Of a DNA stretch of 25,072 bases, positions 3,757 through 25,006 are shown piece by piece. The stretch is taken from the IMG/VR virus record IMGVR_UViG_3300044798_000102, positions 1-25,072 of that record; one strand, given 5' to 3'. Both the position numbers and the translations under genes were made by a program. Every line of letters starts with the position of its first letter. The first letter of the stretch is position 1. Source of the DNA: a virus. The notes below the pieces were generated by a model, which was not told the DNA's origin, searched no databases, and worked only from the letters and a program-made list of their open reading frames with translations.

Positions 3757-4301
3757 ATGGTCCCTCGAATGAATGGGATAAGCTTAGCCTTCGCGGCAGC
3801 CACGATCCGGTTGTCCCCAGGAATCACCTCGGGCGCCTGCAGCTGAGCCATTGACAATTCTCGGGCGGCAAGCAGGAAGATAGCCGACTTGATGGGACCG
3901 GGGTAATCTGCCGCATAGCCACCCACGTAGGAAAGCACGATCCGCAAGGATTCTGCAGTGATATAAGTCAACAGTTCCAGATAACGCGTCAGCCCGTCCA
4001 TGAACCTGCGCTGGACATAATCAGTTCCTTCGACGAGCGTAATGTCCTTTGTCGGGTCGACAGGATTTGGACGGTACTTGACCGATGTGAGTGTGGTAAC
4101 CGGCGGGTGCGCCGGGAAAACGATCTTGCAGCTGTCCTGCAACTCCGCTGTCACCGTAGCCGTGTCCAATTGATACCCTAATACCCGTTCCACGTCGGCC
4201 TGGGAACGCGCGAGGACATAGGCATTGTTCACGTCCCCGGTCGTATCGGCCGAGTCTATATGTGCAAATGCCTTGAATTCGGGCAGCAGGGTGACAGCCA
4301 T
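3753..4301 (-). CDS. Head-tail connector protein (gp6/gp15-like adaptor)
   Basis: The 182-residue product is mostly helical and begins MAVTLLPEFKAFAHID. The segments VLARSQADVERVLGYQLDT near the start and YPGPIKSAIFLLAARELS near the end correspond to the helices typical of head-tail adaptors that sit below the portal ring. Between them is a strand region, CKIVFPAHPPVTTLTSVKYR, with the hydrophobic-Pro pattern common in the DNA-packaging adaptor family. It lies between capsid-side genes and the gp10-like gene, as expected. The ATG shares one base with the stop of the preceding gene. Confidence 0.75.
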   Translation of the reverse strand: MAVTLLPEFKAFAHIDSADTTGDVNNAYVLARSQADVERVLGYQLDTATVTAELQDSCKIVFPAHPPVTTLTSVKYRPNPVDPTKDITLVEGTDYVQRRFMDGLTRYLELLTYITAESLRIVLSYVGGYAADYPGPIKSAIFLLAARELSMAQLQAPEVIPGDNRIVAAAKAKLIPFIRGTI

Positions 4302-4660
4302 TACGCGCCAGCGGCCTTAGCGGCTGCAGCGATCTCCGGATCCTCGTTATGTGCGAGGAAATCCGTCACGTACTTGGGATTCTCAGCGTAGATCTCCCGG
4401 ACCGTCTTGCCCTTGTATTTCCCAAAGGTCAACCGCAGTTCCACAGCAGGAACTAGAATGGGTTGTGCCGGCGCCAGCATGGCAGTCTCAACCATGTTGC
4501 CTCCAACAACCGATGTATACCGGCCATCGTTACCCCCAACGAGCACTGCAAAGTGTCCCTTGATGAGCGCCTGTCCCTGGTCTTCCGGGACCTCAACGTC
4601 CATCCCAGGACGCCAGACTCCGAACGGGCCTGCTGCGAGTGACAGCATACGTACAATCAT
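4301..4660 (-). CDS. Small head/neck-region protein with ExoX-C-like tail
   Basis: The protein has 119 residues. A well-spaced GGAGG precedes the ATG, and the ribosome site lies inside the end of the previous gene. The N-terminal part, starting MIVRMLSLAAGPFGVWRPG, and the phrase VPEDQGQALIKGHFAVLVG resemble a short phage beta-barrel protein often found near connectors. The last 45 residues contain LTFGKYKGKTVREIYAENPK and then YVTDFLAHNEDPE. This FGKYKGKT-x(n)-P-x-Y-x-x-x-L pattern is known from the C-terminal domain of ExoX-like exonucleases. No exonuclease catalytic domain is present, so this may be a nucleic-acid or protein-binding module reused in the virion. Function unknown. Confidence 0.65.
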   Translation of the reverse strand: MIVRMLSLAAGPFGVWRPGMDVEVPEDQGQALIKGHFAVLVGGNDGRYTSVVGGNMVETAMLAPAQPILVPAVELRLTFGKYKGKTVREIYAENPKYVTDFLAHNEDPEIAAAAKAAGA

Positions 4661-6010: not shown

Positions 6011-7213
6011 CTATGGGGCAAGCGTGATGCGGGTGAAGGCCTCGGGAAGGACGGGTTGACCGTCTGACCAGACCTCACCATAGAACCCGGTCTCACCGGT
6101 GGCGATGTGCAGTTCCTTCGCGACGGCAATGGAAATACCGTTCGAGTCGACGATGCGGTAGCCGGACTTGAAGTCACCCAGGATGCCGACGTAGAGGCCA
6201 GCAGTCCAGGTATGGGGAACGTACAAGGACTCGTTCACGGGAACACCAAGGAGTCTGTCGGGGCTTCCGGTGACAACCGAACCGTACCAGATGTAGCGGC
6301 CCTCGCCGTCCTTCATCGATGCAAGTGCAAGGACTGCGGAGCTGTGGAACATCCATACCGCAACCGCTCGATATTGTTCCTGGATGTTGTACTTTGCGCC
6401 AATCAGGCCATCCAGGGTGAGGGCGGTCTGTGTGTTGCCGGTCGCAAAGTCGCGGTCAGTGTTGATGCCGTTCACCGAAGCGGTGAACACGCCAAGCGGC
6501 TGGTTGGTGCCTGAGCCGTTGAAATAACCATTCTCAAACGCCTTGGCGAACTTGAAGATGAAGCGTTCGCGGACCTTGCTCTCGACATCGATCCCCGAGT
6601 TCCGAAGGAGCGCGTTGGAAATCTTGATTCCCTTGCGCAGAACCTGCGGCTTGAGCTCGCGCTTGCCGAATTTCATGGTCACATCGAGCGTGGCCGCGGC
6701 GACTTCAGACGTCCATTCGGCGTCGGAAGCATCTGTAAGTAAGGTGGGTATGCCGAGAGAATCGGTGCCCGCGATGGTCTCGATCGTCGCCAGCTGGCGG
6801 ACGAAGACTTTGGCGTCGACACCCTGGATGAGTTGTTTCGCGAACTGCTCAGGTACGAGGTAGCCGCCATCGGCCTCACTCGACTGTGTCAGGGTACGAG
6901 CTTCGATCTCGCTGACGCGCCCGTTGCGCAGATATTTGACGAATGCGGCGCGCGCCTCATCCTTGGGTGCTTCTCCCTTGACCCCGCCCGCAGCAAGGAC
7001 GGGCTGTTTCTCGCCCAAAGAGACCTCCGCGGCTTCCAGCGCACTCCGACGGTCCGCATCCTCTCTGAGGGTGATCACGTCGGTCATGATCTTATCGTAC
7101 TGCGTCCGCTCTTCAGCGGTCATCTCGCGCTTCTCCTTATCCGCGAGATCGATCAGTACGCGTGCATTGCTGATAAGACCTGCACGCTTCTCGAGAATAT
7201 CTTTTACAGTCAT
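6011..7213 (-). CDS. Major capsid protein, HK97 fold
   Basis: About 400 residues. The N-terminal 70 residues, TVKDILEKRAGLISNARVLI onwards, are coiled-coil-like and match the delta (scaffolding) domain that the prohead protease removes in HK97-type phages. Downstream features of the fold include LTQSSEADGGYLVPEQFAKQ, the E-loop/spine region with WTSEVAAATLDVTMKFGKRE, and FENGYFNGSGTNQPLG, a standard phrase in this family. A GTG at 7216 precedes an ATG at 7213. AGGAGG is two bases from the GTG but five from the ATG, so I take the ATG. Portal, protease and capsid are in the canonical order. Confidence 0.95.
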   Translation of the reverse strand: MTVKDILEKRAGLISNARVLIDLADKEKREMTAEERTQYDKIMTDVITLREDADRRSALEAAEVSLGEKQPVLAAGGVKGEAPKDEARAAFVKYLRNGRVSEIEARTLTQSSEADGGYLVPEQFAKQLIQGVDAKVFVRQLATIETIAGTDSLGIPTLLTDASDAEWTSEVAAATLDVTMKFGKRELKPQVLRKGIKISNALLRNSGIDVESKVRERFIFKFAKAFENGYFNGSGTNQPLGVFTASVNGINTDRDFATGNTQTALTLDGLIGAKYNIQEQYRAVAVWMFHSSAVLALASMKDGEGRYIWYGSVVTGSPDRLLGVPVNESLYVPHTWTAGLYVGILGDFKSGYRIVDSNGISIAVAKELHIATGETGFYGEVWSDGQPVLPEAFTRITLAP

Positions 7214-7233
7214 CACTACCTCCTAGGTAGTCT

Positions 7234-8229
7234 TCACTTGCCGAGCTCTGCGAGCCTCAGCTGCTCCCGCAACACAGAAGTTGGGGTGGTATGTATGGGT
7301 TCAGGCAATGCCCCAGGGCATTGGCCTTGAGTGGCACGGTAATCATTCAACACGTCCAAGCCGGAGCGGACAGACGCGTCGGTCGTCGGATACGCGGGAA
7401 AGGTAACCGGTGAGACGTCGTAGAGTTTGACTTCCTGGATCGTGCGAACAAGATTCTTGGGATCTGATTGATCCCATTGCTCTTTCGTCACCTGGAAGGC
7501 AAAGCTCATCTGGTTCACGTCCCCGCGTTGCATAGGAGTAAGGACCATGTCCTTGATGAGTTGTGTCTGCGGCGCGTCGATCTCGACGGCCAGCCCTTTT
7601 TCGTCCTCGGTAAGCCGCAGGGTCTTCGGAGTTCGCCCGAGCACGTAGTCCTCGTTGTGGTTCCAGAGGGCTCGTACGTCATCGCGCTTGATGGCCGCCT
7701 TGAACGCGCCTTTGGCAATAACCTCGGTAAACCAGCCACCGATGTCGGTTGGCGTGTCGAAGACGGCGGCATGTCCGGCGATCATGGGATTCGCCCCATC
7801 ACTCTCACGGTACTCACAGGGCACGGTCCGGCGCTCAATCCTGTCATCCGCGAACTGCTTCAGTTCTGGCGCCACCAGACCGGCATCATCGATATGCGCC
7901 GCCAGGTGATTGTAGACGCCCTCTCGGTCGACATCGGGAATCGTGGTTCCGCCGCGGCCCCCGTTCAGCACGCCAATGCCCGCCTGGCAAGCCTTGACAT
8001 TGGCTGCGCCGATCGTGCCATCACTGGCGACTTCATGGTTAATAAACTTGTATGCCGCCTTTGTCTTTGGGTCTCCTGCGGGATCCTGCCAGGCAAAAGC
8101 TTTCCGGTAATAATCCTCGGTCTCATCCAACCGGAGATTTGCTTTCGCCGCCGGGCCGTCCCACGGCGCGTCTGACGTAGTTGTGTGATGTACTGCCAAG
8201 GCGTTGCGCAATTCAGCTATCTTATCCAT
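7234..8229 (-). CDS. Prohead protease (HK97 family, peptidase S78) with N-terminal extension
   Basis: The likely start is the ATG at 8229 (MDKIAELRNALAVHH), preceded by GGAGG and overlapping the portal stop by 8 bases. Earlier in-frame starts lie deep in the portal gene. The 331-residue product has an N-terminal module of about 115 residues with HEVASDGTIGAANVKACQAG and a later YNHLAAHIDD, a segment also attached to other phage proteases. The serine protease domain follows, with RALWNHNEDYVLGRT giving the probable catalytic His191 and GDVNQMSFAFQV the probable Ser242. The enzyme matures the prohead by cutting the capsid delta domain and then itself. Confidence 0.9.
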   Translation of the reverse strand: MDKIAELRNALAVHHTTTSDAPWDGPAAKANLRLDETEDYYRKAFAWQDPAGDPKTKAAYKFINHEVASDGTIGAANVKACQAGIGVLNGGRGGTTIPDVDREGVYNHLAAHIDDAGLVAPELKQFADDRIERRTVPCEYRESDGANPMIAGHAAVFDTPTDIGGWFTEVIAKGAFKAAIKRDDVRALWNHNEDYVLGRTPKTLRLTEDEKGLAVEIDAPQTQLIKDMVLTPMQRGDVNQMSFAFQVTKEQWDQSDPKNLVRTIQEVKLYDVSPVTFPAYPTTDASVRSGLDVLNDYRATQGQCPGALPEPIHTTPTSVLREQLRLAELGK

Positions 8230-9862
8230 TGCATACCTCCAGTTGTGCATTGACGGCCCCCAGAATGTCAGAGGCAAGCGACGCAGATGAGTTCTGCGCC
8301 CGTTCCGCATACCAGACCTCAAGAGCGTGCATCGGGTCAACGAACTCATCCTGCGCCCGGCTCACGACAGAGAGCAGTACAGCCTCTTCGGACTCGGCGT
8401 AACGCCTTGCCTGGACTTGCGCGAAGGCTTCTCCAACCAGCCTGTCCGCATCCTTGCCATCACCCATTGCGCGAATGTGTGCAAGCAGGGGTGCTGCAAG
8501 CCGCTCTGTTACCACTTTACAGAGTGATGTGGCACAGTATTCGCGCAACCATTGGGTGAAACCAGCAACACCTGATGAATCAAGGGCTTTCTTCCCCTCG
8601 GTCAGGACGTCGTGCTGCTCGCGTTTTCGAATACCCGCCATGACATCTCCGACGACCGGAAGCAACAGGCTCCGGATTGCTGGGGGGACGGTCATGTTCA
8701 GGGGCTCCAAATACCGGTCACCCTGGCTTCCAATAGCATTCATATTCTCCATATTTCTGATGTCGTTGACTGACAGGTAACCCCACTGGCGTCCAAGAGC
8801 GTAGGAAGCATGACGCGAAGCAGTATCGCCCCTCAGAAGACCATCCAGGACAAACTCAGCGAAGTAGGTCTGCCGATCGGGCTCAGGAAACAGGGCCACG
8901 AGCTGCTGCTCAATGTTCACCAACCACGGCCGGACGGTATAAGTGACGTACTGGATGGCAAGGTTCTCGATGTTGGAGAACGTGCTATGGTCCAGATCTC
9001 CTACGAGGTGCGGGGGGACCCGGAAGATGGAGGCGATTTCTTCGCGTGAGAACTTCCTGGTCTCAAGAAACTGGGCATTGTCTGGGTTGATCCCAATGGT
9101 TGCGATGTCTGCGCCACCTTCGAGGACAGCGGTGCGATGCGCATTGCTTAATCCTGCGTGCGTCGCGTCCCAAGTCGCGGCGATTTCCTTGGCCCTGTCA
9201 GTCCCGAGTGTTCCTTGAAATTTGAGCGCCACACTCGGATTCGCATTGTGAGCGAAGAACTGCTCTCCATACTGCTGAGCTGCCATAGCAAGACCAAGCG
9301 TCTCACGTGCCTTGTCGATGGGCGAGTACCCGACAATCCCATCGAAAGAGAGGCCATGCAAATGAAGAATTCGGTAATCGGGCAACTTTGCGGTGGTTCC
9401 ATCGGGCAGTGTGTAGATGTATGTCAAACTCAGGTCCGCATTCTGCCAGATCTGCATCTTGTCAGGACGGAGCAGCCACAAAGCGGCGGTGCGCCCGGCA
9501 CCATCCAGCTGGATCTCAGAATAGGAATTGCCCCAACCCAACAGATGGCTCGCAGCTGCCTGTCTCCAGGCAAACGACGTCATGCGCGAGTTGACCTTGT
9601 CATGCAAGAGTGGATACAGCGGATGATCCGACGCCCGGTCCTTGCCATCCTTGGTTCTCCGATAGACGTTCAAAGGAAGCGATGCAATGGTCGACGCCAA
9701 CAGATCAATACAGGAGTACACCGTCGTCAAGGTGAGGGCCGTACTCTCCGTCACCGTCACGCCGGAGATGGCATTCTGACCGCCCAGCATCCGGATCAGT
9801 ACCGGATCGTTCGAGGTCAGCAGCCACTCTGTCGCCCTCTTGAGTCGTGTCCAGAAGTTCAT
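8222..9862 (-). CDS. Portal protein, HK97 family
   Basis: The start is taken as the ATG at 9862 (MNFWTRLKRATEWLL), eight bases after GGAGG and just past the terminase stop at 9867. The open frame continues further upstream but without a ribosome site. The 546-residue protein has the HK97-portal signature: TVYSCIDLLASTIASLPLNV near residue 50, HDKVNSRMTSFAWRQ, and FSREEIASIFRVPPHLVGDL followed by STFSNIENLAIQYVTYTVRP. It forms the dodecameric channel through which DNA is packaged and ejected. The C-terminal 150 residues beyond the core are helical and acidic. Overlap with the protease gene suggests coupled translation. Confidence 0.95.
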   Translation of the reverse strand: MNFWTRLKRATEWLLTSNDPVLIRMLGGQNAISGVTVTESTALTLTTVYSCIDLLASTIASLPLNVYRRTKDGKDRASDHPLYPLLHDKVNSRMTSFAWRQAAASHLLGWGNSYSEIQLDGAGRTAALWLLRPDKMQIWQNADLSLTYIYTLPDGTTAKLPDYRILHLHGLSFDGIVGYSPIDKARETLGLAMAAQQYGEQFFAHNANPSVALKFQGTLGTDRAKEIAATWDATHAGLSNAHRTAVLEGGADIATIGINPDNAQFLETRKFSREEIASIFRVPPHLVGDLDHSTFSNIENLAIQYVTYTVRPWLVNIEQQLVALFPEPDRQTYFAEFVLDGLLRGDTASRHASYALGRQWGYLSVNDIRNMENMNAIGSQGDRYLEPLNMTVPPAIRSLLLPVVGDVMAGIRKREQHDVLTEGKKALDSSGVAGFTQWLREYCATSLCKVVTERLAAPLLAHIRAMGDGKDADRLVGEAFAQVQARRYAESEEAVLLSVVSRAQDEFVDPMHALEVWYAERAQNSSASLASDILGAVNAQLEVCNG

Positions 9863-9866
9863 CGTC

Positions 9867-11456
9867 TCAGCCTCCAGCCACGAAGATGTCGTGGGTCTTG
9901 TAATAGTCGTCCTGAATGGTCGGTTGTAGTTCCAGATGTCCATGCAGGGCACACAGGAGCGCAATCAGCAGGTCGATATGGGAGGCATTGTTGCGCTTCA
10001 CCGGCTTGATGTTCCCCGCGGGGTCCTGGATCACCGACACGTTGTCGAACATCCAGCGCATCACCGGGTTCGGAGGAAAGTTGATCCTGCCGGCCATGAT
10101 GAGGCGCTGCAATTCCTTGGCTGACGGGCTCATGGTCTTGAATCCCTGACGTGCTTCGAGAACGTTCCAGCCATCCTTCTGCAGGTCATTGCTGAACTGC
10201 GAGAAGTTCCACGGATCTCCCAGGAGGTCGTTGCACTTCGTGATCTCGCGCCGCTTCTCCAGATAAGAACGGATGAAGTCGTAATCGCACACGTTCCCCG
10301 GTGTCGTCTGGATGAATCCCTGCTGCACCCATACGTCATAGGGGACATGGTCGGCACGTGAACGCTCCTGCAGGTTGTCGCCGGGGATGAAGGCCATGGG
10401 GACAACGTCGCACTGACCATCTGGCTTAAGTGGAGCCCATAGTTCGACACAACCTACCAAGTCGATGGTCCGGGCGAGATCGATACCAACAAACCCCACG
10501 CGCCCGGCAGTCTCAAATGGCTTATCGGTGATGCACTTATCATAGAAAGCCATGTCCAGCCAGCGCTCTGACTGCTGTGTCCACTGATTGAGAAAGAAAC
10601 GCCGGAAGGCATTCTGCTTCGCAGGCACGTTCGTTGCCTCACGGCACTCGGAAGCAAGGTAGGATTCAGGGATGATGATGTCCAGGGAAGGATTTGCCTT
10701 GTACCACACCTTCGGATCTGTCCAGTCATCTGTGGGATCAGCTTCATAGATGACCGTGAAGAACGTCGGATCGTCCATCATGCCGGCGGCCACGTTCTTA
10801 GCATACTGGTACGTTTGATAGCAGACAGATTCTTGATCATTGCCTGCCATCGTGATTTCAATAATGAGTGGCTGCTTGCGCGCGCCCGTGCCTGTCATGA
10901 TCAGGTCCACCAACTCGGGATCGTCGAAGGCATAGAGCTCGTCGATGACTGCCCCCGAGACGTTAAATCCTGCCTTGGTCTTGACATCAGAACTGAGCGA
11001 ACGGAGAACGGAGCGGCTGCTCTCCTGGACGATAGAGGTTTGGTATGCCAGGATGCGTTCCGCGAGCACGGGAGAGGTTTCCGCCATGATCTTGGCGCAG
11101 TCGAACACGATGTGCGCCTGCTGTTTATCATTGGCGAGACAGTAGACCTCGGCGCCCGGCTCCCCATCGGCAAACGCCAACAAGAGGGCGAGACCAGCAC
11201 AGAGGGTGCTCTTCCCATTCTTCCGAGGGACCTCGATGTACGCTTTCCGGTACATGCGAAGACCGTCCGAGCGGTGTTTCCAACCGAAAAGTTGCGAAAC
11301 GATATAGGCCTGCCAGGGCTGGAGCGTGAACGGCTGCCCGGCCCACTCACCCTTATACTGCCTGAGATGCGCGAAGAAGCGAACAGCGTAGTCGGCTGCT
11401 TCCTGGTCGAAGTAGTAGGCCTTCGTATCTATCCGAGAGACGTCGTTGGTGATCAT
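9867..11456 (-). CDS. Terminase large subunit
   Basis: This 529-residue ATPase-nuclease drives DNA into the prohead and cuts the concatemer. The ATPase half shows a Walker A variant, PRKNGKST at residues 77-84, and Walker B GAVIDELY near 168-175. The nuclease half begins around residue 318 with VGFVGIDLARTIDLVG, whose Asp326 is a likely metal ligand. A conserved-looking Asp occurs near the C-terminus in NASHIDLLIAL. This is the Terminase_1 (HK97-like) type. The start overlaps the small subunit stop by 4 bases, and the HNH gene two genes upstream fits a cos-type packaging module. Confidence 0.96.
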   Translation of the reverse strand: MITNDVSRIDTKAYYFDQEAADYAVRFFAHLRQYKGEWAGQPFTLQPWQAYIVSQLFGWKHRSDGLRMYRKAYIEVPRKNGKSTLCAGLALLLAFADGEPGAEVYCLANDKQQAHIVFDCAKIMAETSPVLAERILAYQTSIVQESSRSVLRSLSSDVKTKAGFNVSGAVIDELYAFDDPELVDLIMTGTGARKQPLIIEITMAGNDQESVCYQTYQYAKNVAAGMMDDPTFFTVIYEADPTDDWTDPKVWYKANPSLDIIIPESYLASECREATNVPAKQNAFRRFFLNQWTQQSERWLDMAFYDKCITDKPFETAGRVGFVGIDLARTIDLVGCVELWAPLKPDGQCDVVPMAFIPGDNLQERSRADHVPYDVWVQQGFIQTTPGNVCDYDFIRSYLEKRREITKCNDLLGDPWNFSQFSNDLQKDGWNVLEARQGFKTMSPSAKELQRLIMAGRINFPPNPVMRWMFDNVSVIQDPAGNIKPVKRNNASHIDLLIALLCALHGHLELQPTIQDDYYKTHDIFVAGG

Positions 11457-11968
11457 GGCTTCCTATGTCTTTCGACAACCATGTGCGGCGGTGAGGATTT
11501 CGGAGGGGTGAGCACATCGGTAGGCGGCTTCGTCGGCTGCTGAACCCTGACCCCTGAACGGGCAGAAGGAGTGAACCCCATCTCCCTCGCTGAACGCATC
11601 ATGGCGTCATGGTACGTCTTACTGATGCTCACCCAGGGGGACGGCTGCTCCGCACAGTATCCATGTTGGCCAGTGATCGTCACGGTCGAGCCTTCCTCTT
11701 CCAAGTGATGTTCGGCCTGACGCCAGCGAGCATAAGACTGACAGTACGAAGCCAGAACGGAACGGTCAACCGAGGTCAGGAGGCCGGGAACCTTCGAGAG
11801 AACGCCAATGACCCGGCGCCATTCACTCTTTCCCTCGCCCGTCAGCCAATTTGGGCAGGAGATCAGGGCGGGAAACCGCGGCTCAGCCATGTTGAGGGGA
11901 CGATGCCCAGGGTTGCCCTCGAGCTTCTTGATGGCGTCTGGCTTCCGCGGTCTGCCTGTACGACCCAT
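11453..11968 (-). CDS. Terminase small subunit, P27 family
   Basis: The protein begins MGRTGRPRKPDAIKKLEGNP followed by GHRPLN, the hallmark N-terminus of the P27-type small terminase, and continues with a helical DNA-binding/oligomerisation region around ASYCQSYARWRQAEHHLEEE. It recognises the packaging site and loads the large subunit. A GTG at 11971 directly precedes the ATG at 11968; a G-run lies upstream and better spacing favours the ATG (about 171 residues). The 138 bases before it (11969-12106) hold no gene I can support, only a weak 48-codon frame entering from the HNH gene; a cos site could lie there or further upstream. Confidence 0.92.
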   Translation of the reverse strand: MGRTGRPRKPDAIKKLEGNPGHRPLNMAEPRFPALISCPNWLTGEGKSEWRRVIGVLSKVPGLLTSVDRSVLASYCQSYARWRQAEHHLEEEGSTVTITGQHGYCAEQPSPWVSISKTYHDAMMRSAREMGFTPSARSGVRVQQPTKPPTDVLTPPKSSPPHMVVERHRKP

Positions 11969-12106
11969 CACAAGCCCCCCAGGGTCACAACTTTCGCACT
12001 CGCAAAAGCGTGGCCTCGCGCCGTCAGACGTAGACTACCTTGTGGGTTTCGCATACCCCTATCGCCTGTGTTCATGCGTGTTCTAGACAAGGTTCTTTCG
12101 CACACG

Positions 12107-13717: not shown

Positions 13718-15940
13718 TTAAGCTTTCCTATATCCTTCGCAATCGACCGCCCTTTGATGACGAGCTCCCTTGGCCTTGCATCTACTGCAGGGGTTGAGGG
13801 TGTTGTCCAGGCGGCAGTCCTTTTGATGCAGACACGTCTCACAAAGGCAATGCTCACACTCGGGTTCGTCACCATAGGACTCGGCGCGGTGTCCTGGCAG
13901 ATACTTCGCGGTCGACGTGTCCACAAACCGCGCATAGCCAAGATGTGGCCACTCATTACGGGGATCCTCGAGATATCCCTGGGCGTCCTTGTGCCCCTTC
14001 GACCCCGCGGGTTTCAACCAGACGTGCGTGAACCACGTCGGACCAGCCGCATTCTCTGCTTCCTCAGTGGCGCAAAGTTGTTCGACCTGTTCTTCGGTGA
14101 GGACGATGACTCGGTCGTCGGCGAACTTCTCGCCATAGACACTGTCGTAGTGATTTTTCTCGACGGCATTATCTACTTGAACGACCACCTTGCCGCCTTC
14201 GGCCCTCCAACCGGCAACGCCCCAATCAACGAGTAGCTCATCCTTGCTGGTCAGCCTGCGCCGCGGGTGCCGGAAGTCGTCCCACAGATCACCGTAGATC
14301 TGCCAGCCGGCGTCCGTTCTCTCCACGCGTGTCACCTTGCGAATGTCGTACACAAAGCCTCTTGTGTGCAGCCGGGTCACCAGGTCGCCTACCTTGACCA
14401 GGTCTGGAACGTCCAGTTCGGCAGCCAGCAGCATCACTGCCTCGATCGCGGCCACATCTTTCTTCGCATACCATCGACAAGCATACTGCCCCGTCTCCAT
14501 CGGGTAGCCGGGGACACCGCACGTGCTATCGCAATCGGGCGTTCCATGCTTGCACGAATGGCAGAGACAGGGGCCGCCTTCGCCGTTGTACATTAGTTGA
14601 CAGGCAATCTCGGGGCAGGGTCCCATGCCAGGGGCCAGGATGTCCGCGGGGAAGGTTGCAGCGTCGCGCCAGTGAGGACACTTCTTGACGATCGCAGCGT
14701 AGACCTTCCAGTGATGCGGATGATTCAGCCAGCATGTAGAACAGATGAGGACTGGTTCATCGCCATTGAGCGCACAGTTCAGGTTGCGGTAGCCACAGGT
14801 CTGGCACTGACAGGCAGTGCATGAGCCGTCTGCGCATTCGGTTGGCCGGACGTACCGCTGAACCGTGTCGACGTGCAACTGTTCCCGCAGCAGCTGGCTC
14901 TCGGTGTTGCCCATGACTTCGGCAGTGAGAGCAGCCTTGCGTCCGCAGAGCGTTGTCGGCTGGAGCTCGGGCTTCCCCAGGCACTGGTCACAGCCGCAGG
15001 GAGGGCAATCCTTCCACGTCTTGTCCGTATAGTCCAGATGTGCCTGGTTCAGACCGCAGGTCTCACAGTCGCAGTGCGAACAGATGTCGGCGTTGCTTCC
15101 GGGGAGAGCGTTGCCATTATAGACCGTACTCGTGAGCTTCGGTTGCTTCTTCGCCTTGGCTGGCTTCGTGGGCTCGACAGGCGCAACAGGCGCCTTCTGT
15201 CGATACCGCATGAGCAGCTTCCACTGTTCGAAGGGTTCATAGACTCCAATATCGTTGCGCTCGTTCTGCTTGGCAACAGCAGCGAGAGTCCAGGGGGTGT
15301 TGTTGATGCGCCAAAAGAACTCTTCCGTTGACTCACCCAAGTCGTAACGGTACCCGTCGTCAGAGCCTTGGATAAGTCCCTTGTTGTATACCTGGGCGAG
15401 GAGCTCCTTCGGGAACAACGGCGCGATCTCTTTGGCCGTAGGCATGCTGACTCTCTGCAGGTACATGATGAGTCTGTCCTCTGCCAGCTTGTCGAACTTG
15501 TCGCTAGCCGGCCAGTAGCCGACACAGCGCTCGACGGCACAGGGAGGTTCCTGCCGACAGTGGGGTTTGCACATGCAGCCATAGAGCGGACACGTCCCGC
15601 CGTGATACTCGCCACAGTTCCGGCAGTCACACGCCCAGGGAGATTCGAGCTTTGGGGCGGGCTGAGTGAGAGGCACGAAGTTGTCATCACAGATCACGCT
15701 ATCCACCATCACCACATTGTCGACGATCGTGATATCGTGTGACAGCGCTTTCGCATACCTGACCGAACACTTGAATCTGTCTTGGTCCCAATGCTCACAT
15801 ACAAAGCCGACTCGTTCCTTGCAGCCCGGCACGCATACAAAGCGATGATCTACTCCACCGTCAGATTCATGTGGTTTCGGCGCAATCGGCTCAGGAAACA
15901 GGCTGCCTGCCCATCCGGACACTTCGGGTCCGCGTCTCAT
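13718..15940 (-). CDS. Large protein with five repeated Cys clusters
   Basis: This is the longest gene in the window, 740 residues with about 49 Cys. Cys clusters lie at about residues 104-128, 287-320, 374-403, 458-474 and 695-721. The core pattern is (C-x2-)C-x-C-x2-C, a spacer of 5-16 residues and Cys, often closed by C-x2-C: for example CSHCDCETC at 287 and CEHCLCETC at 695. A further Cys pair group is at 36-58. Between clusters are ordinary segments: residues 150-245 could hold a winged-helix-like unit (TAKEIAPLFPKELLAQVYNK), and 505-620 is a mixed alpha/beta region. The clusters suggest structural zinc or metal-cluster binding and possibly nucleic-acid contact. No enzyme motif, signal peptide or membrane segment is visible. 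The ATG overlaps the preceding stop as ATGA. I do not recognise the family. Confidence 0.85.
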   Translation of the reverse strand: MRRGPEVSGWAGSLFPEPIAPKPHESDGGVDHRFVCVPGCKERVGFVCEHWDQDRFKCSVRYAKALSHDITIVDNVVMVDSVICDDNFVPLTQPAPKLESPWACDCRNCGEYHGGTCPLYGCMCKPHCRQEPPCAVERCVGYWPASDKFDKLAEDRLIMYLQRVSMPTAKEIAPLFPKELLAQVYNKGLIQGSDDGYRYDLGESTEEFFWRINNTPWTLAAVAKQNERNDIGVYEPFEQWKLLMRYRQKAPVAPVEPTKPAKAKKQPKLTSTVYNGNALPGSNADICSHCDCETCGLNQAHLDYTDKTWKDCPPCGCDQCLGKPELQPTTLCGRKAALTAEVMGNTESQLLREQLHVDTVQRYVRPTECADGSCTACQCQTCGYRNLNCALNGDEPVLICSTCWLNHPHHWKVYAAIVKKCPHWRDAATFPADILAPGMGPCPEIACQLMYNGEGGPCLCHSCKHGTPDCDSTCGVPGYPMETGQYACRWYAKKDVAAIEAVMLLAAELDVPDLVKVGDLVTRLHTRGFVYDIRKVTRVERTDAGWQIYGDLWDDFRHPRRRLTSKDELLVDWGVAGWRAEGGKVVVQVDNAVEKNHYDSVYGEKFADDRVIVLTEEQVEQLCATEEAENAAGPTWFTHVWLKPAGSKGHKDAQGYLEDPRNEWPHLGYARFVDTSTAKYLPGHRAESYGDEPECEHCLCETCLHQKDCRLDNTLNPCSRCKAKGARHQRAVDCEGYRKA

Positions 15941-16140
15941 TCCACTACTTCCAGCATACCAAGGCAGCGGCTGAGGCGGCTTGCCTTAACGGTGAATTGG
16001 TCGCCGTACTTGTCTGTCAGCTCGACCCATTGTTGCACCCCATTGCCGACGACGAGCCCCTTGAAGATACGGCCGTCAAGAAGAACCAGCTGGACCTTGT
16101 TGCCTGGGCATAGCGTTTTGATGACACCGTTGTTCGTCAT
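15937..16140 (-). CDS. Small Sm/SH3-like barrel protein
   Basis: The ATG at 16140 overlaps the stop of the 3D-domain gene, and the stop overlaps the start of the large Cys-rich gene, so all three are probably co-translated. The 67-residue product has the sequence pattern GNKVQLVLLDGRIFKGLVVG followed by WVELTDKYGDQFTVKASRL. A strand, D-G-R-x-F-x-G turn and second strand recall Sm/LSm or other small beta-barrel folds used to bind RNA or proteins. The resemblance is short and the function unknown. The same frame is open upstream to 16338 but that part overlaps the 3D gene and has no ribosome site. Confidence 0.65.
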   Translation of the reverse strand: MTNNGVIKTLCPGNKVQLVLLDGRIFKGLVVGNGVQQWVELTDKYGDQFTVKASRLSRCLGMLEVVE

Positions 16141-16670
16141 TTCTTGGCCTTCGGAATGTAGAGCACCCGGACTTCGACATTGCGCCGCCTGCCCCACTGG
16201 ATTGCCTCGCTTTCGTGCCAGTAGAAAACATCCAGCTTCAGCCCCTTGATAGCACCGCCCTGGTCGATAATGGTGCAAGGGTTCCCGCCATTGTAGCCTT
16301 GCACGGTGATGATACTTCCACAGGGCAGGACGCGCCAATCTGCCGCGATACCACCGACGCGAACCTTCTGGCCTGATGCCGTCGTCAGCGGATCACCATC
16401 ACACTCTTGAACCGTAGGAGAATACGCTGTGCACTCCATGTACAGAACCTTGACTGGTTCTGACTCCCTTGTCGTCACCTTGTCAAGAGCAACCTTCACG
16501 ACTGCAGTGCGAGTAGCGAGACGCAGATTGACCCAATCATCGGCGCTCCTCTGACGCGGCGCAAAGAGCAGGAATGCCGCAATGTACAGTGCAGCGAGCA
16601 GGATGGCAATCACGATGATTACAATCTGGCTGTAGTCGATGCGGCGCGACGTGCGAGAGGACCACTTCAT
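16137..16670 (-). CDS. Membrane-anchored 3D-domain cell-wall protein
   Basis: The 177-residue protein has a positively charged N-terminus (MKWSSRTSRR), one transmembrane segment at about residues 16-37 (IVIIVIAILLAALYIAAFLL), and a C-terminal 3D domain from about residue 77. The domain shows ECTAYSP, TASGQKVRVGGIAAD, LPCGSIITV, then CTIIDQGGAIKG and LDVF, with the three Asp residues that name the family. 3D domains share the double-psi barrel of MltA-type lytic transglycosylases and act on peptidoglycan in Gram-positive-type bacteria. It probably lies outside the membrane, anchored by the N-terminal helix, and may be a lysis enzyme or wall-remodelling factor. No separate endolysin was found in the window. 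Confidence 0.8.
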   Translation of the reverse strand: MKWSSRTSRRIDYSQIVIIVIAILLAALYIAAFLLFAPRQRSADDWVNLRLATRTAVVKVALDKVTTRESEPVKVLYMECTAYSPTVQECDGDPLTTASGQKVRVGGIAADWRVLPCGSIITVQGYNGGNPCTIIDQGGAIKGLKLDVFYWHESEAIQWGRRRNVEVRVLYIPKAKK

Positions 16671-16683
16671 TTCTGCTCGCCGC

Positions 16684-17232
16684 TCATAGTGTCACCACGT
16701 TGAAGGGCGCCCTGACGCCCGCACAGTTGCGCTCAGTAATCTCCAGGGCAATACGAATCATGTCCTCAGGTGCGATGTCACCTGCGCGAATCATAGCCGC
16801 CATTGCACCTTTGGCATACTCTTCGCCGCACCCGGTAGCGTCATAGGGGTGGAGCGCTTCGCTTATCTGGTAGTCACTCTGGACCTTGAACAGGCGACCT
16901 TCATAGCCGACAAGAATCCAGCTGTCACCAGTCTTTTCTACTTCCTTGTCTTTCTCAGCAACGCCGCCCGTTTTCAGACAGCCACGGATGGCGTCGACAA
17001 AAGTTGTCCTCATCCACTTATCGATGTCTTCATCAGGATGTCTCTCAGGAACCACGAGGGCATAGCGCAGCAGGTCTCGCACACGGAAAGAGCCACACCC
17101 GCCCATGATGTAGGGTCCGTTCGTGAACACTTTAGGATCCTTGTGCACCGTCAGTGTCCATCCGGATAGGCCTGCCGAATCCCCGCCGATGTAGACCTTG
17201 CCTTTCGTGCTAAAACCAACGATGCAGGTCAT
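16684..17232 (-). CDS. Proteasome/HslV-like Ntn hydrolase
   Basis: I choose the ATG at 17232, which overlaps the NinG-like stop as ATGA, giving 182 residues that begin M-TCIVGFSTKGKVYIGGDS. After Met removal Thr is residue 1, and Asp17 (in GGDSAG) and Lys33 (in HKDPKVF) fall exactly where proteasome beta subunits and HslV have their catalytic residues. A later GCGEEYAKGAMAAM corresponds to the G-S-G-x-x-Y-A helix start, with Cys in place of the usual Ser129. Family knowledge says such enzymes cut peptides with an N-terminal Thr nucleophile inside ring assemblies. No ATPase partner is encoded here. The role in the phage is unknown; options include proteolysis of host proteins or of phage proteins. 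Confidence 0.82.
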   Translation of the reverse strand: MTCIVGFSTKGKVYIGGDSAGLSGWTLTVHKDPKVFTNGPYIMGGCGSFRVRDLLRYALVVPERHPDEDIDKWMRTTFVDAIRGCLKTGGVAEKDKEVEKTGDSWILVGYEGRLFKVQSDYQISEALHPYDATGCGEEYAKGAMAAMIRAGDIAPEDMIRIALEITERNCAGVRAPFNVVTL

Positions 17233-17759
17233 GACTTGCTCCATGCCTGTCCGGTGATTGCGCGGTATTGGGCTTTGAGCCTGGCGTTCTCGGATTCGTA
17301 GAAGGCCTGACGGTCATGGAGCAGTGCCATGGATTCGGCCCACAGTTGATCGAGGTAACCTACGCCCACCTGCGTCTTCGCCCAGGACATTGCCTCCTTC
17401 CGGCTGAGATCGTGCCACCATCCGTTGTGACAGTCGGAGCAGAGCAGGACAGCGTTGCGAGAGTTCCAGCGCGTGCCGAAGAGTTCCCGGACAAAGATGT
17501 GTGACCACTGGGCGTTGCGACCTTCGACGTGTTGATGACAGTGACGACAGACCATGCCGTCACGAAAGCGAACGATGTCGCCACAGATTGTGTCGTTCTC
17601 GTTTCGCAGGGCCGTCAGACAGCGGCTGCGTATCTGCGCAGCTTCGACACCCTTGCTGACTGCCTTGCACGTTCGAATGCTCCCTTCAGAGGTTCGTCCG
17701 CTTTTCTTGAATGCCGTGCGCCGTAATGGTGTTCGCCGTAATTCCCCAGTCCGCATCAT
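17229..17759 (-). CDS. NinG-like HNH/zinc recombination protein
   Basis: The 176-residue protein is basic at its N-terminus (MMRTGELRRTPLRRTAFKKS) and has a Cys/His core CRHCHQHVEGRNAQWSHIF followed by WNSRNAVLLCSDCHNGWWH, the zinc-binding pattern of lambda NinG (Rap), a Holliday-junction endonuclease, and related HNH proteins. The final helix carries SENARLKAQYRAITG. Two adjacent ATGs (17759 and 17756) are possible; the G-run upstream is better spaced for the second. Position in an accessory block between replication and packaging matches the nin region of lambdoid phages. Activity could be junction cleavage or DNA nicking. Confidence 0.72.
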   Translation of the reverse strand: MMRTGELRRTPLRRTAFKKSGRTSEGSIRTCKAVSKGVEAAQIRSRCLTALRNENDTICGDIVRFRDGMVCRHCHQHVEGRNAQWSHIFVRELFGTRWNSRNAVLLCSDCHNGWWHDLSRKEAMSWAKTQVGVGYLDQLWAESMALLHDRQAFYESENARLKAQYRAITGQAWSKS

Positions 17760-17837: not shown

Positions 17838-18119
17838 CTAGGTGATGATCGGCAGGATACCCCCTGCTTCGACTTTCTGAACGACAGGTTCACTGTCTAT
17901 GATCGGTTCAGGTTCAACGCTCACAATGTTTCCTTTGCGTACCAGGGACGGATCGAACACGACCCTGTCAGCCCACATAGCCTTCTGACCCTTATTCCAT
18001 TGGGAAACAGGCCTCAGATAGCCAACCACACGGCTGTAGACCTCAGTCCTGGTACGTTTCTCAGCGGGGATGATGACGCCGTTGTCCAGCTGGAGATCAC
18101 CGTTCGGCAGTTCAACCAT
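17838..18119 (-). CDS. Stand-alone NrdD-type glycyl-radical mini-protein
   Basis: The protein has 93 residues. Residues 27-45 read VYSRVVGYLRPVSQWNKGQ, which closely resembles the C-terminal glycyl-radical segment of anaerobic (class III) ribonucleotide reductase, where the Gly in R-V-x-G-Y carries the radical and is followed by a W-N-x-G-K region. Here Gly33 would be that residue. The catalytic barrel of NrdD is absent and no such gene is in the window. Small free glycyl-radical domains are known to repair cut host enzymes (GrcA/YfiD for pyruvate formate-lyase). The N-terminus MVELPNGDLQLDNGVIIP and the C-terminus are not recognised. It overlaps the HNH gene by 8 bases. About 78 bases without a gene follow its stop. 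Confidence 0.65.
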   Translation of the reverse strand: MVELPNGDLQLDNGVIIPAEKRTRTEVYSRVVGYLRPVSQWNKGQKAMWADRVVFDPSLVRKGNIVSVEPEPIIDSEPVVQKVEAGGILPIIT

Positions 18120-18771
18120 TGGGTGCTACCTCGCAGATCATGTCAAGCCCCTTCCATTCTCGCGGAGTTCTCTTGTTCTTGCTGGCGTTACAATGTCGGC
18201 AAGCTGGAACGATGTTTGCTTTGGTATGCTTGCCGCCCTTAGATAGAGGGATGACGTGATCCTGCTCTGGAACCTCCCATCTTGTCCCATCGAGTCGCAA
18301 CTTGTGTCCACAGTAGGCACAACGGTAATCAAACCGCTGGAGAATGTCTTTCCACTCGCCAAGTGTCAGCATTTCGTCAATCGGCGTATTAACTACCTTC
18401 AGGGCTCGATATTCACGTACTCGAAACCGACACAACATCCTATGTCCGAGGCGCCAATGTCTATTGGTCTCCACAATCCTCTCTCTATGCAATTCTGTCC
18501 AAGCAATCCGGATTTCGGGGTGTTCCTTTCGATAGGTGGAATTGTAGGATGCCATCTTGGTTCTCCGTTCTTCGCTTTCCCAGTACAGAGCTGAACGCCT
18601 CGCAGAAATCTCTTCACGATTATCCGACCGCCATTTCTTCACGTGCTCCAAGATTTGCTCTCGATGTTCCCCGTAGTACGCGACGCAGCGTTGGGCGTTT
18701 GCTTCTTTGTTCTCTTCGTAGTATTCCTGGTTGTACTGACGTTTGTGCTCTTTCCGTTCTTCGTCAGTCAT
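18112..18771 (-). CDS. HNH endonuclease with charged helical N-terminus
   Basis: The C-terminal third of this 219-residue protein is a complete HNH domain: CAYCGHKLRL, then EQDHVIPLSKGGKH, and NIVPACRHCNASKNKRTP, with the two CxxC pairs binding zinc. The first 110 residues are highly charged and helical with many Glu, Arg and Tyr (for example HKRQYNQEYYEENKEANAQR), a common leader of phage HNH proteins. It is probably a free-standing homing-type nuclease that moves with the accessory block. Its start overlaps the stop of the BRO gene as ATGA and its end overlaps the glycyl-radical gene. Confidence 0.85.
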   Translation of the reverse strand: MTDEERKEHKRQYNQEYYEENKEANAQRCVAYYGEHREQILEHVKKWRSDNREEISARRSALYWESEERRTKMASYNSTYRKEHPEIRIAWTELHRERIVETNRHWRLGHRMLCRFRVREYRALKVVNTPIDEMLTLGEWKDILQRFDYRCAYCGHKLRLDGTRWEVPEQDHVIPLSKGGKHTKANIVPACRHCNASKNKRTPREWKGLDMICEVAPNG

Positions 18772-19499
18772 GTTAGCAAAGCCTCTCCGATGATGTCAAA
18801 CACCTTCCTCATCCAGAACGTCTGGTAGACACAACGGCGATTCTCCAGTTGAATAGGCATCGTCTTGGCGTACTGCTTTCCTCGCTCATTTGGGATCCAC
18901 TCTCCCCCAACCCTGAACTGGAGGCCGCAGATTTGTAGACGGATATTGACCTCAATTCCAGAAAGCCGGGGGTTGAACATGCGTCCAATTTGGGTCGGTG
19001 TGATAAATTCCTCGCTCGCGTTGGACGGTACTGGCAGGGCAGGGATCCCCTGGGCGATCTTGTCGACGCGCTGACTTACTTGGTCAACTTTGGCATTGGC
19101 CGCGGCAATCTGCTGGTCCTGACGCTCCAGGTCATCAACAAGTCCCCTGAGAATCCCGTAGACGTTCTTCGAGCTCGGCAGGTAGGACCCGGTCTTGCGG
19201 ATCTGCGGAAGGACCGTACCGGTGACCCACAGCCGAAAGGCCTTCGCCTGGAACTTGTGGCTTCTGATGATCAGGGCATAGATTCCTGATTCACTGATGA
19301 CAGTCATAGACTGTTCGCCACCAAGGGTCAGAACTTGGGCCTTATCCCTTTCGGACGCATCAAGACCTTCGACTGCCTTGCTTGTATCTTTCAGATCCAG
19401 AATGCTACAAACGTCCTGTGCCACGAACCATGGATCTCCATCTTTTGTTACCGTTCGAATCTCATGAGCGTTATACTGCCATACTTGCAATTCCTCCAT
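18768..19499 (-). CDS. BRO-N domain protein (antirepressor-like), copy 1
   Basis: The 243-residue protein has a BRO-N domain at residues 1-105: DPWFVAQDVCSILDLKD, TLGGEQSMTVISESGIYALI, then FRLWVTGTVLPQIRKTGSY. Such domains bind DNA and are common in phage antirepressors and late regulators. A short coiled region (about 117-150) links to a C-terminal domain starting SEEFITPTQIGRMFNPRLSG that resembles other antirepressor C-termini but is not the KilAC type found in copy 2. GGAGG lies six bases before the ATG. The gene follows the replication protein by 38 bases, which suggests control of replication or of the switch to late genes. Confidence 0.85.
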   Translation of the reverse strand: MEELQVWQYNAHEIRTVTKDGDPWFVAQDVCSILDLKDTSKAVEGLDASERDKAQVLTLGGEQSMTVISESGIYALIIRSHKFQAKAFRLWVTGTVLPQIRKTGSYLPSSKNVYGILRGLVDDLERQDQQIAAANAKVDQVSQRVDKIAQGIPALPVPSNASEEFITPTQIGRMFNPRLSGIEVNIRLQICGLQFRVGGEWIPNERGKQYAKTMPIQLENRRCVYQTFWMRKVFDIIGEALLT

Positions 19500-20278: not shown

Positions 20279-20460
20279 GCCCCAGTCTTCAAATGCAAAC
20301 CCTCGCGACGCAGACTAGGGAGAGAGGTCACGAGGGCAACCGTTACCATACCAGTCTTCCTCGAGATTGTCAACTCTTTCGCCTTCATGCCAGTAAGACG
20401 GCCTACCTGCATGCTGGCACGCTGACAAGCCGCTGTACTGTCATGCCGATACAGCGTCAT
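20275..20460 (-). CDS. Possible 61-aa protein (low support)
   Basis: The ATG at 20460 overlaps the DUF5131 stop as ATGA, as in the neighbouring gene chain, and the frame runs to a stop within the -35 box of P2. The product includes MKAKELTISRKTGMVTVALV, which faintly recalls AbrB/MazE-type DNA-binding strands, then SLPSLRREGLHLKTGA. There is no good ribosome site, and a promoter-like sequence lies inside the frame. It may be real, a decayed gene, or chance. Apart from this frame, 20084-20456 holds promoters and leader structure. Confidence 0.35.
   Translation of the reverse strand: MTLYRHDSTAACQRASMQVGRLTGMKAKELTISRKTGMVTVALVTSLPSLRREGLHLKTGA
20345..20373 (-). promoter_or_regulatory. Sigma70-type promoter-like site P1
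   Basis: On the minus strand TTGACA (20373-20368), a 17-base spacer, and TATGGT (20350-20345) preceded by TGG. It points to the replication gene about 95 bases upstream of P2. It lies within the weak 61-codon frame, so either the frame is not a gene or the promoter is internal. Confidence 0.5.
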
Positions 20461-21320
20461 GCCGTCATTGTCCTCGGATATTCCTGGATCGTCTTGCCAT
20501 CAGGCCAGAAGTGTGCCAGATTCTTCTTCTGAAATAGGGGTATACCATGCTCTAATGCACGGCTACTAAGGTCATAGACCCAATCGGCTTGCGGTTGCCG
20601 ATTCTTTGCACCCGGCCCTGTCATGGCCCCGATCACCAGCCAGTCAATCATCTGGTCTGCCATGTCGAAGCGCGAGGCGATGTCTTCCAAGAGCGGTTCA
20701 GCTGATGCCCACGTGTGCCAGCCGCGAGAATGTGCCAACATCATGGCCGCGCCCGTTGGGTCATCGACGGTCATCGAAAACGTGTGGTCTAGGGTGTCGC
20801 ATGTCGTCCCGAGCCACCAATTCAAGTGCGCGGTCTTCTCACGGAAGACTGTCTCATATCTGCCGGCGTTCTTCGTGAGGAACAGGTACTGATGCTGCGG
20901 GTTCATCTCGCACGTTGCCAGGACGGAGTAGATCCAGTCATCCGGCACCCAGTCTCCGAACAGGTCTGCCATCGAACAGACGAACACCCGCGAGGGCTTC
21001 TTGACCCACGACGGTTCAGGCAAACGGTACTCATGGAACGTCGGCTCGAAGTTGAATGGATACAAACTGCGGTTTTCTCGGGAACCCAGTATCATCGGCC
21101 GGCCGTGTTGATCTTCAAAGGTCAGATCAACAAACTCTTCTTCAACATTAAACCGAATATAGTGCAGATGCGGCCTGTCGGGATATGTGGTGTCAAAGTA
21201 ATAGGTGTCGGCACCGAAGCGAGTAGCAATCCTGCGGGCATAGCAGTAAGAACAGCCATGCTGACAGCCCGTTATGGGGTTGAAAGAATACTCGGCATAA
21301 TCGATCGTCGTCTTCTTCAT
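20457..21320 (-). CDS. DUF5131 (Gp37/Gp68) radical-SAM-like protein
   Basis: The ATG at 21320 overlaps the HNH stop as ATGA and has a GGA-type ribosome site; earlier starts fall inside the HNH gene. The 287-residue protein begins MKKTTIDYAEYSFNPITGCQ and has Cys19, Cys23 and Cys26 (C-x3-C-x2-C, in GCQHGCSYCYARR), the signature that holds a 4Fe-4S cluster in radical SAM enzymes. The middle segment PSRVFVCSMADLFGDWVPDD and the later LVIGAMTGPGAKNRQPQADW are standard for this phage/plasmid family. Its reaction is not established. Placement in the accessory block next to a homing endonuclease suggests a modification or defence-related role (inference). Confidence 0.85.
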   Translation of the reverse strand: MKKTTIDYAEYSFNPITGCQHGCSYCYARRIATRFGADTYYFDTTYPDRPHLHYIRFNVEEEFVDLTFEDQHGRPMILGSRENRSLYPFNFEPTFHEYRLPEPSWVKKPSRVFVCSMADLFGDWVPDDWIYSVLATCEMNPQHQYLFLTKNAGRYETVFREKTAHLNWWLGTTCDTLDHTFSMTVDDPTGAAMMLAHSRGWHTWASAEPLLEDIASRFDMADQMIDWLVIGAMTGPGAKNRQPQADWVYDLSSRALEHGIPLFQKKNLAHFWPDGKTIQEYPRTMTA

Positions 21321-21847
21321 CTCAATCCTTCCTTGACGCAACCCCATTTGATGCCTAGGGCAGCACGTCTGATGGCAGTATGTGATACGCCGAACTGCTG
21401 TCCTAGCGCCCGCAGCGTCTTCGTACCATGAAGTTGTCGGATTGCCAGAACGTCTTCTCTTGTGAGTTTGTGCGTACCAGATTTCTCACCGTCGGACATT
21501 CCTCCGTTTATCCGCTTGTCATTCATGTTCTCAAGGCGTGTTCCCCACTCGAGATTGCGGATGTCGTTGTCCTTTGGGTTGTCGTTAAGGTGCCGGGCTT
21601 CTTGGCCGTTTGTAGGCAATCCCTTCCAAGCAGACAGCACAGCTCTGTGGACATACATCTTGTGTTCCTCTCTGTCAACGGACATGAACACGTAGAGGTG
21701 TCCGTCCTGACCAACAATGGGCTTCATGATGTGGCGATTGCGCCTTCTGAGCGAGACGATCTGCCCGTCCCGAGAAGCGTAGTAGCCTTCGTATCCGGGG
21801 ACTGCGTTCCATGTCTTGTCGGCCCAGTCGATTGAGGTGCGATTCAT
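21317..21847 (-). CDS. NUMOD4-HNH homing endonuclease with DUF5131-like N-terminus
   Basis: The 176-residue protein has a NUMOD4 region (about residues 13-45, WNAVPGYEGYYASRDGQIVS), an HNH core around residues 65-110 (YVHRAVLSAWKG, then ARHLNDNPKDNDIRNLEWGT), and a C-terminal helix-turn-helix (LTREDVLAIRQLHGTKTLRA and VSHTAIRRA). This order is typical of phage SPO1-type homing endonucleases. Unusually, the first 14 residues, MNRTSIDWADKTWN, match the N-terminus of DUF5131 proteins (compare KTTIDYAEYSFN at the start of the next gene). It looks like a nuclease that took over or fused to the start of a DUF5131 gene. ATGA overlaps on both sides. Confidence 0.9.
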   Translation of the reverse strand: MNRTSIDWADKTWNAVPGYEGYYASRDGQIVSLRRRNRHIMKPIVGQDGHLYVFMSVDREEHKMYVHRAVLSAWKGLPTNGQEARHLNDNPKDNDIRNLEWGTRLENMNDKRINGGMSDGEKSGTHKLTREDVLAIRQLHGTKTLRALGQQFGVSHTAIRRAALGIKWGCVKEGLR

Positions 21848-24000: not shown

Positions 24001-24257
24001 CGCGCCGCCTCGACCTTGATCTTCACCTGCTGATCGTCCATGGTGACGCCATGAGCTTCAGCAAGCAGGTCGTCAATCACCCGGCAAATGTCGTTGCCAA
24101 GGTCAATGGCCGTCTGCCCTTCATCAAACTTGCGGCAAATCACCTGCTCGGCGACGATCCCGGGACGGACCAAGCACATCATGGTCTTGCGATGCAGCAG
24201 AAAGTTGAAAGTACAGGCCTGATGCTTGCAGACTTCGCACAGAATGGCGCGCTTCAT
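23997..24257 (-). CDS. Small Cys-containing unknown protein
   Basis: The 86-residue protein begins MKRAILCEVCKHQACTFNFL, with C7, C10 and C15 (CxxC then C) and a later C28 and C41, consistent with a small zinc-binding fold. The second half is acidic and helical, DLGNDICRVIDDLLAEAHGV. It overlaps the BRO gene upstream (ATGA) and the 41-residue membrane protein downstream (ATGA). No known family was recognised. Confidence 0.72.
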   Translation of the reverse strand: MKRAILCEVCKHQACTFNFLLHRKTMMCLVRPGIVAEQVICRKFDEGQTAIDLGNDICRVIDDLLAEAHGVTMDDQQVKIKVEAAR

Positions 24258-25006
24258 GCCTGCGTCACCTGGACCAGCTGGCGGATGAACTCGAGGCCTT
24301 TTTGGTACACCACGCTCTTGAAATAGACGTGTTGGTTGCCGTCAGGATCTGTCCAGGACGACTCAATGACACGAAACAAACCCATGTCGACGAACTTCTG
24401 ATACGGGCGATTGTTCTGCATGAGAACGCCTTCCTTCCGCAGAAATTCGAACAGCGTGGTTCTTCCCATGCCCGGGATAGCGAGAACCTTGGCGACCGTG
24501 CCGATGTCCGTGGTGTCGGAGCTCGAGGCGACGGTGTCGAAGAAGGCGACCTTCGGGGCGGCAAGTGCCAGCTGGGCAGTCTGCTGTTCGATCTGCTCAG
24601 CCTGCTTGGCTGCCAGGTAGAGCGCGGCACTAAACGAGGTCGGCACCGTGGGCATCTGAACAGACGGGACAGTATAGGTGCCTTTCGCTCGCAGAGATGG
24701 TAACACATCCGACACGATCCACTTACGCAGAGCGTGCGCCTGTGGCTTTCTTGACTGCATAATCAAGATGTAGAGTCCGGCCTCGGTGACTGCCGTCATC
24801 GACTGACGTCCTCCAAGGGTAGGGGTAACTACTGAACCCTTTTCATCAGCCTCCAGTTTCGATACTTGGTCAGCCCAACACTTCAAGCCCAAGATAGCCG
24901 AGACATCCTTCGCTACGAACCAGACCTTGCCCTCGATGACCGACGTCCGCACCGGCTCATGTCCGGCGAAGTTGAACGTCGTGATGCTGCTTGCTGTTGC
25001 TTCCAT
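24254..25006 (-). CDS. BRO-N/KilAC phage antirepressor, copy 2
   Basis: The 250-residue protein has an N-terminal BRO-N domain: VWFVAKDVSAILGLKCWADQ, LGGRQSMTAVTEAGLYILIM, and LRKWIVSDVLPSLRAKGTYT. A coiled linker (AAKQAEQIEQQTAQLALAAP) leads to a KilAC/ANT domain with IGTVAKVLAIPGMGRTTLFE, FLRKEGVLMQNNRPYQKF and VYFKSVVYQKGLEFIRQLV. This is the usual architecture of phage antirepressors. GGAGG lies five to six bases before the ATG. The 66 bases upstream to the window edge show no clear promoter. It heads the overlapping gene chain. Confidence 0.92.
   Translation of the reverse strand: MEATASSITTFNFAGHEPVRTSVIEGKVWFVAKDVSAILGLKCWADQVSKLEADEKGSVVTPTLGGRQSMTAVTEAGLYILIMQSRKPQAHALRKWIVSDVLPSLRAKGTYTVPSVQMPTVPTSFSAALYLAAKQAEQIEQQTAQLALAAPKVAFFDTVASSSDTTDIGTVAKVLAIPGMGRTTLFEFLRKEGVLMQNNRPYQKFVDMGLFRVIESSWTDPDGNQHVYFKSVVYQKGLEFIRQLVQVTQA

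Follow-up and report, generated by a model that had tools for sequence, protein, structure and literature searches.

In 2021, Fuchs, Alva, and Lupas added 22 homologs to the known relatives of the proteasome, PPH and AAH included, for which neither AAA+ partners nor a telling gene context were found (PMC8665760). PPH, a protein of about 140 residues without helix H2, was presented as "the first true viral member", and AAH, the alphaproteobacterial and actinobacterial proteasome homolog, was reported from many phages, through which it has been inserted into Firmicutes and Bacteroidetes (PMC8665760). In prophage AH14a, a 156-aa "proteasome subunit beta", which may be a PPH, is encoded three genes ahead of the terminase (PMC4936722). 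Among related proteins, BPH has been shown to lose its initiator methionine and to react with epoxomicin through Thr1, but showed no activity on casein or on any peptide tested (PMC5777263), and in the 20S proteasome Ser129 and Asp166 protonate the Thr1 amine (PMC4792962). The literature that we found leaves AAH- and PPH-type proteins without a known function, and no functional study of a phage proteasome homolog was found.

Here, we analyzed a gene in a 25,072-base virus fragment (IMG/VR record IMGVR_UViG_3300044798_000102, hereafter the window), which very probably belongs, as a working phage copy, to the AAH-type branch of the proteasome-like N-terminal nucleophile (Ntn) hydrolase family and encodes a predicted peptidase. 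The novelty implied by the initial annotation was not borne out, as the protein adds a member to a family that was already on record from phages and bacteria, including phage members without an ATPase partner (PMC8665760), and that is annotated in PHROGs and RefSeq.

The gene and its start codon

The translated open reading frame (16684-17232, minus strand) begins MTCIVGFSTKGKVYIGGDSAG..., with Met followed by Thr1. The features of the gene and the gene directly upstream are as follows.

16684..17232 (-): proteasome-like Ntn hydrolase, probably AAH-type (PHROG 1040 "peptidase HslV family"); 182 aa plus stop
17227..17232 (-): start codon and codon 2 (ATG ACC), initiator Met and predicted catalytic Thr1
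17179..17181 (-): Asp17 codon (GAT)
17131..17133 (-): Lys33 codon (AAA)
16828..16830 (-): Cys codon (TGC), Ser129-equivalent, residue 134 with Thr as 1
17229..17759 (-): HNH/NinG-like endonuclease, directly upstream, start/stop overlap

The start originally chosen, an ATG (17232-17230) that overlaps the TGA of the HNH gene as ATGA, was upheld by the comparison of homologs, and a GGAG is found 7-10 bases 5' of it. The Met-Thr start is universal among the 174 homologs collected, and a start codon directly precedes Thr in all 173 non-window loci (ATG, 150; GTG, 14; TTG, 9). That translation truly starts at another in-frame ATG 12 bases upstream (17244, MEQV), leaving Thr internal and the protein therefore no Ntn hydrolase, can scarcely be credited, since 114 of the 173 homologs have no upstream in-frame start codon at all and the 82% identical locus L004 has a stop just before the fourth upstream codon with a GTG but no ATG between, while Met-Thr is kept at this position in 174/174 and the GGAG spacing fits 17232 better. 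The start annotated for the homolog of Moorella phage MTATph1 (5001-5558) falls 42 bases within the gene, and homology places a TTG start at 5001, restoring the Thr1 start.

Conservation, predicted fold, and family assignment

After removal of Met, Thr1, Asp17, and Lys33 stand at the proteasome/HslV spacing, as had been claimed from the window alone. This spacing is not a matter of chance, because each of the three residues is identical in 174/174 homologs, all of which start with Met-Thr. The window gene is under purifying selection, with Nei-Gojobori dN/dS values of 0.035, 0.148, 0.132, and 0.176 against loci L003, L004, L006, and L142, respectively, the larger dS values being near saturation.

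The helix start at the place of Ser129 reads TGCGEEYAKGA, so that the proposed G-C-G-x-x-Y-A pattern is present as G-C-G-E-E-Y-A and Cys134 aligns with the Ser of GSG in HslV and BPH (proteasome Ser129). In the window protein, Cys thus replaces the Ser129 that makes up, with Asp166, the second, proton-shuttle set of the 20S proteasome. The description of this Cys as unusual holds against HslV, BPH, and the 20S proteasome but not within the family, where Cys is the commonest residue (147/174, with Ser in 13/174). Since so many members share it, the substitution is a chemically interesting, family-wide trait rather than a peculiarity of this phage. The segment at the oxyanion turn is more particular to the window and its nearest relatives, which have GGCGSFRVRD where the family has GFTSSFRMGQ, with a conserved S-F-R-M-G-Q after the turn. 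Cys2, Cys84, and Cys134 occur together in 117/174 homologs; the three also vary independently, and a metal-site or disulfide reading is not claimed. Nor is a caspase-like S1 reading of the conserved Arg49 claimed, as the alignment with proteasome residues 45-49 is ambiguous.

Profile matches to the protein differed in strength. PHROG 1040 matches it at 2.1e-22; Pfam PF00227 (Proteasome) gives 15.6 bits, under its curated cut-off of 22.4, and matches 9 of 101 relatives at E 0.01 or better (best, 6.1e-6). The NCBIfam HslV models stay below their cut-offs (TIGR03692, 15.2 vs 157.75 bits; NF003964, 16.6 vs 137). A profile built from the 101 relatives matches full-length BPH at 1.8e-5 and several HslV chains at about 1e-4. 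The AlphaFold2 single-chain model, computed with the 101-relative alignment, predicts with confidence a proteasome-family Ntn fold (pLDDT, 95.8) with helices H1-H4 at residues 49-57, 70-88 (H2), 137-150, and 155-169 and a terminal strand at 178-181, after which the chain ends. The top PDB match in Foldseek is BPH (5ovs; E, 1.3e-11; TM, 0.83), and VIA gave Z 21.4 for BPH (172 residues, 2.4 A) and Z 21.2 for HslV (166 residues, 2.8 A), a tie between the two. The triad together with the predicted beta-sandwich proteasome fold argues for membership in the superfamily, and conservation, profile matches, and the structure model all lend good support to the original prediction of a phage proteasome-like Ntn peptidase over a different fold.

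Given the presence of H2 and a length of 182 residues, the protein is not a PPH, and AAH is the fitting label, assigned here from the published description. PPH, likewise compared by description, resembles the window protein in being phage-encoded without an ATPase partner, but is shorter (about 140 aa) and lacks the helix found here at 70-88. The traits of AAH group I are present: BPH and HslV as nearest relatives, H1-H4, no propeptide, and no C-terminal S12/H5. The host range agrees as well, since the best 80 genome hits, gathered by means of a DNA pattern and a narrow alignment (A2), come mainly from Alphaproteobacteria (Azospirillum, Rhizobium, Ensifer, Mesorhizobium) and Actinobacteria (Streptomyces, Dactylosporangium, Frankia), with a few Bacillota and others. 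The window protein resembles AAH in hosts, occurrence in phages, compact subunit, and the lack of a propeptide and of an AAA+ partner.

Homologs occur in 176 GenBank phage records, among which are T5-like Epseptimavirus, Vibrio, Aeromonas, Moorella, Geobacillus, Ochrobactrum, and jumbo phages. No GenBank phage matched the window in a megablast search. The "peptidase HslV family" proteins of PHROG 1040 and RefSeq (T5-like phages, Moorella MTATph1, Geobacillus E3, PBECO4) are direct homologs, 25-43% identical, with the triad and Met-Thr start of the window protein, and in the tree those of T5-like and jumbo phages split off as a divergent branch. In Aeromonas phage 2L372X, the gene at 4001-4552 and the next gene are both annotated as "peptidase HslV family" and may be a paralogous pair. 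BPH (PDB 5ovs, 5ovt, 5ovu), for which no unfoldase has been found, is the best PDB match by both fold and profile, and its exposure of Thr1 by Met removal is likewise expected here; it differs in having Ser at the 129 position, a long acidic pore loop, and about 19% identity. HslV (ClpQ) shares the fold (Z about 21) and the Met-Thr start, but has a partner, HslU, and Ser in GSG, and the window protein scores far under the TIGR03692 cut-off.

Gene neighbourhood in the window and in relatives

Downstream of the peptidase gene, the following features lie on the same strand, the head module starting about 4.7 kb away.

16137..16670 (-): membrane-anchored 3D-domain protein, likely cell-wall hydrolase, directly downstream (Pfam 3D, 6.5e-10)
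13718..15940 (-): Cys-rich protein of 740 aa in which Cys-x-x-Cys motifs recur
11453..11971 (-): terminase small subunit, start of head module (phrog_83)
9867..11456 (-): terminase large subunit (phrog_9)
8222..9964 (-): portal protein (phrog_12)
7234..8349 (-): prohead serine protease S78, the head maturation protease that this phage itself encodes (PF04586, 1.4e-44)
6011..7216 (-): major capsid protein (phrog_10)

On the upstream side are HNH genes and genes for an antirepressor and a replication initiator; the adjoining HNH gene is 100% identical in L002 and 71% identical in L004. Apart from the terminase, no ATPase was found among the window genes scanned, in particular no AAA+ unfoldase or linked hslU, in agreement with the initial annotation and within the limits of a record that is a fragment. 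Several other genes deserve mention. The 740-aa Cys-rich protein, without a Pfam or PHROG match, is kept in L002 (86%) and L003 (58%). Adjoining an HNH gene, a 93-aa open reading frame (17838-18119, minus strand) matches Pfam NRDD over no more than the final 31 positions of the model (E, 2.5e-6). It represents the glycyl-radical tail (RVVGYL...) of anaerobic ribonucleotide reductase standing alone, is conserved in L004 (89% over 62 aa), and could be a spare radical domain or a split-nrdD remnant. Two Bro-N antirepressor genes (18768-19499 and 24254-25006, minus strand) are present within this single small stretch of phage DNA, the second also with a KilAC domain, and 20457-21347 (minus strand) encodes a DUF5131 protein (phrog_2045) with a weak radical-SAM match.

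In the dereplicated IMG/VR loci, neighbouring families include the terminase large subunit, portal, head morphogenesis, head maturation protease, and major head protein. Of 67 loci, 17 have the AAH gene directly beside a gene for terminase, portal, protease, or capsid (8.1 expected) and 10 have it between such head genes (2.0 expected), where expectations derive from the other non-head genes of the same loci and head genes were called with profiles from neighbour clusters; these counts come from partial contigs and simple ORF calls, with relatedness partly removed and profiles seeded from the same loci. The excess persists when only same-strand open reading frames of at least 80 or at least 100 aa are counted and when loci are thinned to below 60% identity (adjacent, 10 vs 4.0-4.5 expected; between, 5-6 vs 0.9-1.3). 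Head-linked members are scattered on the tree, and the slots vary (TerL>portal, TerL>S78, portal>S78, portal>MCP). This head-module context is absent from the published account of AAH, so that the enrichment goes beyond PMC8665760 and offers a lead to function.

About half of the dereplicated loci have no head gene in range. In several large phages (T5-like, Geobacillus E3, Vibrio 2.058), the gene lies near thymidylate synthase/DHFR genes, the T5-like members sitting among nucleotide-metabolism genes, unlike the window gene, and chromosomal copies without phage genes exist. The conserved neighbours of the Azospirillum-group chromosomal copies (tRNA synthetases, a mannosyltransferase, a beta-lactamase fold) were considered as partners and rejected, as they look like a fixed locus of the genus.

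Proposed mechanism and rival roles

Methionine preceding threonine is removed by methionine aminopeptidase. In the mechanism that we propose, the peptidase would be translated together with the upstream HNH gene, and the host aminopeptidase would strip Met1 to expose Thr1. The Thr1 O-gamma, activated by Lys33 and Asp17, would then attack peptide bonds, with its amine presumably held by the Cys in place of Ser129. Subunits would probably form a closed ring or double ring as in BPH/HslV, enclosing the active sites. Since the nearby genes include no dedicated unfoldase, substrates would have to be unfolded, small, or delivered by a housekeeping factor. The likely task would be to process or clear proteins of the phage or the host in the course of infection, virion assembly being one option, to which the head-gene context lends slight weight. 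We place most weight on a peptidase, with its role split between host-protein processing and head assembly.

One tentative, less likely possibility is an accessory cargo gene, degrading or editing host proteins or defence factors during infection and inserted wherever operons tolerate it. The distribution of the family is patchy, HNH neighbours are frequent, and slots vary among close relatives, the gene order of L006 being unlike that of L002 and L004; in the tree, host and phage copies are intermixed (12 label changes). However, the triad and family motifs have been strongly conserved over the long term, and random insertion leaves the head-module enrichment unexplained.

A complete triad is no proof of protease activity, since BPH, of the solved structures the closest relative, acted on none of the substrates tried (PMC5777263). 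A single-substrate processing enzyme or a connectase-like peptide ligase (transpeptidase), rather than a general protease, is unlikely. That connectase, a proteasome relative, is a ligase (PMC8665760), that BPH does not cleave standard substrates, and that the family carries Cys for Ser129 and the conserved S-F-R-M-G-Q are consistent with such an enzyme, but the model differs from connectase: it is compact with H1-H4 and has no two-helix S3-S4 insertion, whereas connectase has the insertion and lacks H1/H2.

Distinctly unlikely is a role devoted to virion assembly, in which the peptidase would work beside the S78 protease, removing scaffold or delta-domain fragments or trimming head proteins. 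The excess of head-adjacent and head-flanked copies and the head module downstream in the window point towards it; the loci without head genes in range, the copies near thymidylate synthase/DHFR genes, the chromosomal copies, and the S78 protease that this phage already carries argue against it. A more specific form of this proposal, that AAH-type phage proteasomes are a second, ATP-independent, self-compartmentalising head-assembly peptidase, repeatedly recruited between head genes (terminase, portal, prohead protease, and capsid), with a Cys-tuned Thr1 clearing scaffold or protease fragments, is improbable. If the protein were nonetheless a head-module peptidase, relatives of the proteasome would serve in virion assembly with no unfoldase. 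This small phage protein is highly conserved, its triad is exact, and its genomic position is non-random, which makes the question of function in the family testable.
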